Below are positions 4,709-5,020 of a DNA stretch of 64,000 nt, piece after piece (the stretch's first letter is position 1; every line of letters begins with the position of its first letter). Made by a program: the position numbers and the translations under genes. The notes under the pieces were generated by a model that was not told where the DNA came from, ran no database searches, and was given only the letters and a program-made list of their open reading frames with translations. Source of the stretch: Thermoplasmata archaeon (GTDB lineage: Archaea; Thermoplasmatota; Thermoplasmata; Lutacidiplasmatales; UBA184); NCBI GenBank assembly GCA_021817605.1, contig JAKAUN010000006.1, positions 1 to 64,000 of the forward strand, read 5' to 3'.

Positions 4709-4815
4709 AGCCCCGTGGTGTAGTGGCCAATCATGCGAGACTCTGGATCTCGCGACGCAGGTTCGAACGCCGCGGGCTCAACGGGCCCCACCGGCCGGAA
4801 CTCCTGCCGGGGCTA
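4709..4815 (+). tRNA. tRNA-Gln (anticodon CTG) with a T-loop intron
   Basis: The acceptor AGCCCCG pairs with CGGGGCT at 4808-4814, with discriminator A4815. The anticodon arm is CGAGA-CTCTGGA-TCTCG, giving CUG. The T stem GCAGG (4757-4761) pairs with CCTGC (4803-4807), but 34 extra bases sit inside the T loop. Removing 4768-4801 leaves the loop TTCGAAT and a 73-nt tRNA. The junctions form a bulge-helix-bulge: 4762-4765 pair with 4796-4799, and two 3-nt bulges carry the cut sites. Without the intron assumption the 3' half does not pair, so the intron is well supported. Confidence 0.9.
4768..4801 (+). other. tRNA-Gln intron, 34 nt, T-loop position 59/60
   Basis: The 4-bp central helix is UUCG (exon) with CGGA (intron), including one U-G pair. 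The 3-nt bulges are 4766-4768 (cut after 4767) and 4800-4802 (cut after 4801). An inner stem 4769-4772 / 4792-4795 closes the intron. This is the standard archaeal splicing-endonuclease substrate at a non-canonical position. Confidence 0.85.
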
Positions 4816-4866
4816 CTTCCCGAGGGCTATCGTACTTACCGTGCGGGGGTGCTCCAGCTCGGCCAA

Positions 4867-4893
4867 ACCGACCGCTCTCGCGGCCGGGGCCAC
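4867..4893 (+). other. tRNA-Leu intron 1, 27 nt, D-loop
   Basis: Exon GGCC (4861-4864) pairs with intron GGCC (4888-4891) as the central 4-bp helix. The 3-nt bulges are 4865-4867 and 4892-4894. The intron body folds as an almost perfect hairpin (CCG-A-CCGC, loop TCTC, GCGG-C-CGG). Excision leaves a 22-nt D region with a CTC/GAG stem. Confidence 0.82.
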
Positions 4894-4941
4894 CGAGGCA
4901 GGGCTTAGGACCCTGTTGCCTAGGGCATGCGCCGGTTCAAA

Positions 4942-4976
4942 GGGACGCTCGGCCGGCACGGCCGGCCTCCGGAAGC
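4942..4976 (+). other. tRNA-Leu intron 2, 35 nt, T-loop position 59/60
   Basis: It is at the same site as the tRNA-Gln intron. The central helix is UUC(A) with (G)GAA, three pairs plus one mismatch, so it is a relaxed bulge-helix-bulge. Bulges are 4940-4942 and 4975-4977. Excision restores the loop TTCAAAT. The interior is rich in GGCCGG repeats. Confidence 0.78.
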
Positions 4977-5020
4977 TCCGGCCCCCCGCACTTTGCCCGG
5001 CCGGATAGGGCGGCGCGCCG

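Follow-up and report, generated by a model that had tools for sequence, protein, structure and literature searches.

How does a Thermoplasmata archaeon make its tRNA-Leu(UAG) from a gene that is interrupted in both the D loop and the T loop, and is this gene alone in being so interrupted? The gene lies in the first part of a 64,000-nucleotide stretch (the window) of a 1.75-Mb genome, and coordinates without a contig label are those of the window. The first-pass annotation had described a 148-nt tRNA-Leu(UAG) with introns at 4867-4893 and 4942-4976 and an 86-nt class II product. Neither ARAGORN nor the Rfam tRNA model RF00005 detects the gene at 4843-4990. A structure-based parse gave the acceptor stem GCGGGGG/CCCCCGC, the T stem GCCGG/CCGGC, and a T loop, TTCAAAT, split by 35 nt before its last T; the UAG anticodon (4906-4908) and the D stem (CUC/GAG) were placed by hand. 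Without the two inserts, the 148 nt become an 86-nt class II tRNA. The parts of the gene are as follows.

4843-4866, forward strand: exon 1, with the 5' strands of the acceptor and D stems and the D loop to A21; near-invariant in 30 genomes, with C or T at 4858
4867-4893, forward strand: D-loop intron, 27 nt, between tRNA positions 21 and 22; variation starts at 4867 and stops at 4893; cleanly missing in one relative, G023
4894-4941, forward strand: exon 2, with the 3' strand of the D stem, anticodon arm, variable arm, 5' strand of the T stem, and T loop to A59
4942-4976, forward strand: T-loop intron, 35 nt, between tRNA positions 59 and 60; variation starts at 4942 and stops at 4976; site common to 13 further tRNA genes of the genome
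4977-4990, forward strand: exon 3, with U60, the 3' strands of the T and acceptor stems, and discriminator A73; invariant in 30 genomes

A BLAST search of 60 relatives recovered the gene at full length in 30 other genomes of the same genus, and 30 copies were aligned. Positions 4856-4866, 4894-4898, 4930-4941, and 4977-4990 are invariant except for 4858 and a single change at 4898, and the remainder of exon 2 is nearly invariant. The first and last variable positions of the inserts are 4867, 4893, 4942, and 4976, which are exactly the boundaries drawn in the first-pass annotation, so its account of the gene, introns, and product holds on both the parse and the edges of variability. In G023 (locus L077, G023:C31), the D-loop intron is absent, with GGCCAA joined to CGAGG as predicted, and the T-loop intron is retained. 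The contig carrying the endonuclease gene endA in G023 matches the metagenome-assembled genome (MAG) JA4.bin45; the contigs with endA in genus members are 100% matches to named MAGs. These include SubAcS10-22, SubAcS13-64, and AcS1-45, placed by the literature in the acid-soil order Ca. Lutacidiplasmatales (PMC9287336). The organism is thus a member of this acid-soil Thermoplasmatota order and its genus-mates are published MAGs, in line with the euryarchaeal, Thermoplasmatota-like setting that had been read from the window.

That standard gene finders miss the locus could signify that the inserts stay in, leaving a decaying pseudogene or an oversized tRNA. We consider this scarcely credible, since the exons are essentially fixed in 30 genomes and the inserts vary, the changes within the inserts preserve structure, and the precise loss in G023 gives back an ordinary D loop. 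A second, intact tRNA-Leu(UAG), the finding that would have pointed to a silent copy here, was looked for by BLAST and Rfam searches and none was found; 4843-4990 is apparently the genome's sole tRNA-Leu(UAG) gene. We infer from these comparisons that both inserts would be spliced out. Each intron sits in a candidate bulge-helix-bulge motif.

4858-4897, forward strand: D-loop bulge-helix-bulge, with helices 4858-60/4895-97, 4861-64/4888-91, and 4868-70/4885-87, body 4872-75/4880-83, and bulges 4865-67 and 4892-94
4931-4982, forward strand: relaxed T-loop bulge-helix-bulge, with T stem 4931-35/4978-82, UUC pairs 4936-38/4972-74, A57.G mismatch 4939/4971, bulges 4940-42 and 4975-77, and inner helix 4943-44/4969-70

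The D-loop motif is complete, with an outer helix CUC/GAG, a central helix GGCC/GGCC, bulges AAA and ACC with the splice junction after the second nucleotide of each, an inner helix CCG/CGG, and a stem-loop body. It therefore has the 4-bp central helix, two 3-nt bulges, and flanking helices of the archaeal bulge-helix-bulge. The central helix is GGCC/GGCC (or GGCU) in 30/30 genomes, with 4888-4890 invariant and C or U at 4891. Across the 25 genomes without indels, 93.4% of cells are paired and 36 cells are changed on both sides, versus 33-57% paired when partners are slid by 1-3 nt, so the helix, bulges, and body first recognized in one sequence extend to the relatives.

In the T-loop motif, the T stem serves as the outer helix and U54, U55, and C56 form three central-helix pairs (UUC/GAA). 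The fourth position is an A57.G mismatch with an invariant G, and the motif is therefore a relaxed form rather than the full archaeal one, as had been proposed for it. A relaxed motif by itself leaves the cut unfixed, and the T loop stays at 7 nt under small shifts, so that the T-loop splice sites could lie one nucleotide away from those given here. This is very unlikely, since 4941 and 4977 are invariant and 4942 and 4976 are variable, and since cutting two nucleotides into the bulge in tRNAs with G57 gives the same site. In single-sequence minimum-energy folds, the D-loop motif lies 0.6 kcal/mol and the T-loop motif 2.9 kcal/mol above the minimum, and the central helix is left open in the A57 T arms tested. 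Energies thus do not single out the motifs, whose support comes from conservation and comparison; likewise, the fold of the whole pre-tRNA has no cloverleaf (z = -1.34) and was not counted as evidence.

The gene does not stand alone: it is one of 20 interrupted tRNA genes in this genome, and its T-loop site is common to 14 of them. We found 22 introns in 20/44 tRNA genes (45%), or 0.5 per gene, in an inventory that is incomplete, two expected genes, those for Pro(UGG) and Ile(GAU), having escaped detection; the Pro(GGG) gene is intact. Fourteen of the 44 genes carry a T-loop intron of 26-38 nt at 59/60, between TTCRAA and T60: Gln(CUG), Leu(UAG), Asn, Gly(UCC), Arg(UCU), Glu(CUC), Ser(GCU), Ala(GGC), Ser(GGA), Ser(CGA), Arg(UCG), Asp, Lys(UUU), and His. 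D-arm introns, with positions assigned by eye from the motif, are found in Leu(UAG), initiator Met, Lys(UUU), and Arg(GCG), and canonical anticodon-loop introns (37/38) in elongator Met, Tyr, Leu(UAA), and Trp. Two genes, Leu(UAG) and Lys(UUU), have two introns each, and 59/60 holds 14/18 non-canonical introns. With its large interrupted share, several sites, and multi-intron genes, the set is of the intron-rich, Thermoproteales-like kind. For comparison, the mean over 217 archaeal genomes is 0.21 introns per tRNA gene, and that in Thermoproteales is 0.84 (PMC8450103). The canonical intron of tRNA-Trp(CCA) (locus L228, G000:C8:104980-105380) is long, and no guide RNA family scored above the Rfam gathering score in it.

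A neighbor of the Leu gene belongs to this set.

4709-4815, forward strand: tRNA-Gln(CUG), with T-loop intron 4768-4801; adjoins tRNA-Leu(UAG)

ARAGORN ends the Gln gene at 4782, which is wrong because the 3' strand of the acceptor stem is at 4808-4814. The Gln-Leu pair, with T-loop introns in both genes, recurs in relatives such as G022. More generally, more than 12 tRNA genes of the genome are overlooked, given a wrong end, or scored low by ARAGORN and the Rfam tRNA model, so that MAGs of this kind look less complete in tRNAs than they are; the genome's low-scoring Rfam matches proved to be tRNA genes bearing a T-loop insertion. A plain pattern for T-loop introns caught 4/14, and a covariance model was used instead. 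Over the 14 T-loop-intron tRNAs and four tRNA-Leu copies from relatives, 86.2% of cells are paired and 65 are changed on both sides, with slid controls at 31-55%.

Nine of the 14 T-loop motifs lack a full 4-bp central helix, and the fourth position follows the identity of base 57. Within this genome, G57 faces C in 6/6 tRNAs and A57 faces G in 8/8 (Fisher p = 3e-4), such that the fourth position is paired in G57 tRNAs and mostly an A.G mismatch in A57 tRNAs. When two further genomes of the genus, G018 and G022, are added, C is opposite G57 in 15/16 and the base opposite A57 (n = 25) is G in 22, U in 2, and A in 1; the pooled p = 3e-10 is too strong, since orthologues do not count as independent observations. 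A57 therefore usually sits in an A.G mismatch that the splicing enzyme must accept.

The covariance model found 4-15 T-loop intron-arm matches in each of 37/37 genus genomes. The intron-bearing tRNA types in G018 and G022 are the same as in this genome, so that the introns are older than the genus, and their interiors have since diverged. The D-loop motif of Lys(UUU) is altered on both sides, being CCGG/CCGG here versus TAGG/CCTA in G018. In G038, which belongs to another family of the order, the parser finds 13 short T-loop introns (13-15 nt). In most of them the UUCA/UGAA helix is full, and some tRNA genes of G038 have two or three introns. At loci L079 and L276 of G038, tRNA-Leu(UAA) and apparently tRNA-Arg(CCG) have three introns each, in the D arm, anticodon loop, and T loop. 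The genus-trained covariance model finds none of the 13 in G038, so its low counts outside the genus are no sign of absence. A full tRNA parse found few T-loop introns in two genomes of family f2, where f2/f3 pattern matches were near control level and only matches from the full parse were kept. Both have a 31-nt T-loop intron in tRNA-Ala(CGC) (L282, L287), and T-loop introns are thus not confined to the intron-rich families.

Since the splicing endonuclease type had been named in the first-pass annotation as something to look up, it is given here. The sole endonuclease gene found (G000:C3:99791-100852) encodes a 353-aa protein of fused N-C-N-C domains, in which PF01974 and PF02778 each match twice. 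The whole length of the protein aligns with the A. fulgidus alpha'2 enzyme (1r0v), and the catalytic Tyr, His, and Lys were read from the alignment in the second of the two fused N-C repeats, making it a single-protein alpha'2 enzyme. Between YG and LELSL there are 6 residues (SRVGHR), compared with 16 in A. pernix and 7 in A. fulgidus. The first half of the protein is also short at the loop site, as are the aligned relatives; the protein thus has neither a Crenarchaea-specific (CSL) nor an ARMAN-specific (ASL) loop with a lysine before the LxLSL strand, the hallmark of broad specificity. No second endonuclease gene was detected in the genome, and one RtcB gene is present.

Our preferred reading, to which we assign a probability of roughly 0.9, is that tRNA-Leu(UAG) has two introns spliced by alpha'2 and RtcB, with the T-loop intron part of an ancestral, genus-wide 59/60 set. 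The transcript would fold into the two bulge-helix-bulge motifs, a homodimeric alpha'2 would cut both bulges of each, two nucleotides in, and RtcB would ligate the exons to give the 86-nt tRNA. The T-loop intron would belong to a set at 59/60 in about one third of the genus's tRNA genes, present in the genus ancestor, with the site kept and the interior drifting. That splicing occurs, that alpha'2 acts alone, and that it tolerates A57.G are predictions from sequence.

The A57 motifs, with three pairs and an A.G, could instead depend on an extra factor (an RNA chaperone, a modification enzyme, or a second nuclease), with alpha'2 cutting the D-loop and G57 T-loop introns. For both A. fulgidus and T. 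acidophilum, alpha'2 is classed as narrow in specificity (PMC6379350; the narrow class is also described in PMC4033280), which favors such a factor. However, A. fulgidus alpha'2 is able to remove a bulge-helix-loop (BHL) intron from full-length pre-tRNA (PMC6379350), and cutting of BHL-like motifs has been attributed to homodimeric enzymes (PMC8707768), so that a moderate relaxation of the alpha'2 class is plausible. A57 and G57 introns are also alike in site and length, which suggests one enzyme, and with no second endonuclease gene in view we regard the extra factor as unlikely. For splicing by alpha'2 alone, it may be, though we propose this tentatively and at somewhat under even odds, that a loop-less, single-gene alpha'2 was relaxed by another route, letting T-loop introns spread through the lineage. 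This would be an exception to the link between enzyme type and intron diversity, with a distinct mechanism that includes A57.G recognition.

Why the introns persist is a separate matter, and one idea is compatible with alpha'2 splicing of an ancestral set. The introns may have been selected for breaking up the attachment sites of mobile elements in tRNA genes. Intron gain that shields attB sites has been proposed (PMC3293823), and the common site here lies in the T loop; according to the same source, however, direct evidence is lacking, and we rate this selection as rather doubtful.

Each intron described here belongs to a known class. As far as the literature searched shows, what is new is how extensive T-loop introns are in a Thermoplasmatota order whose enzyme is of the narrow type: the search, mainly of freely accessible papers, found no prior report of tRNA introns in Thermoplasmata, and the word "intron" is absent from the main text of the paper describing the order. 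Several introns per tRNA at non-canonical sites had been taken as known mainly from Thermoproteales. They are indeed known there, but the picture is incomplete, as many non-canonical tRNA introns were reported in 2024 from Asgard archaea living in wetland soil (PMC11291895). Like the present order, Thermoproteales and other Crenarchaeota have bulge-helix-bulge introns at several tRNA sites including 59/60, with several per gene possible (PMC4090602; PMC4033280). Their endonucleases, however, are heterotetramers with a Crenarchaea-specific loop, whereas here the enzyme is a loop-less alpha'2 and most non-canonical introns share one site. The Asgard Atabeyarchaeia and Freyarchaeia also live in soil and have many tRNA introns, which are often non-canonical and can exceed one per gene (PMC11291895); the comparison covers these intron features, and the two groups belong to another phylum. 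ARMAN-2, with its epsilon2 enzyme, resembles this order in having a single-gene enzyme that handles relaxed motifs in an acidophilic lineage; the ARMAN loop and its lysine have no counterpart in the endonuclease alignment here. The euryarchaeal alpha4/alpha'2 systems share the enzyme class and the canonical 37/38 introns in elongator Met, Tyr, Trp, and Leu(UAA). In those systems, by contrast, less than 10% of tRNA genes have introns, one each and at the canonical site (PMC4090602), versus 45% and mostly non-canonical sites here. Reviews associate endonucleases that are heterotetrameric or carry a loop with non-canonical and relaxed tRNA introns, and they call alpha-type euryarchaea intron-poor. 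This order combines a narrow-type enzyme with an intron-rich tRNA set, which makes the proposed co-evolution of the two directly testable.
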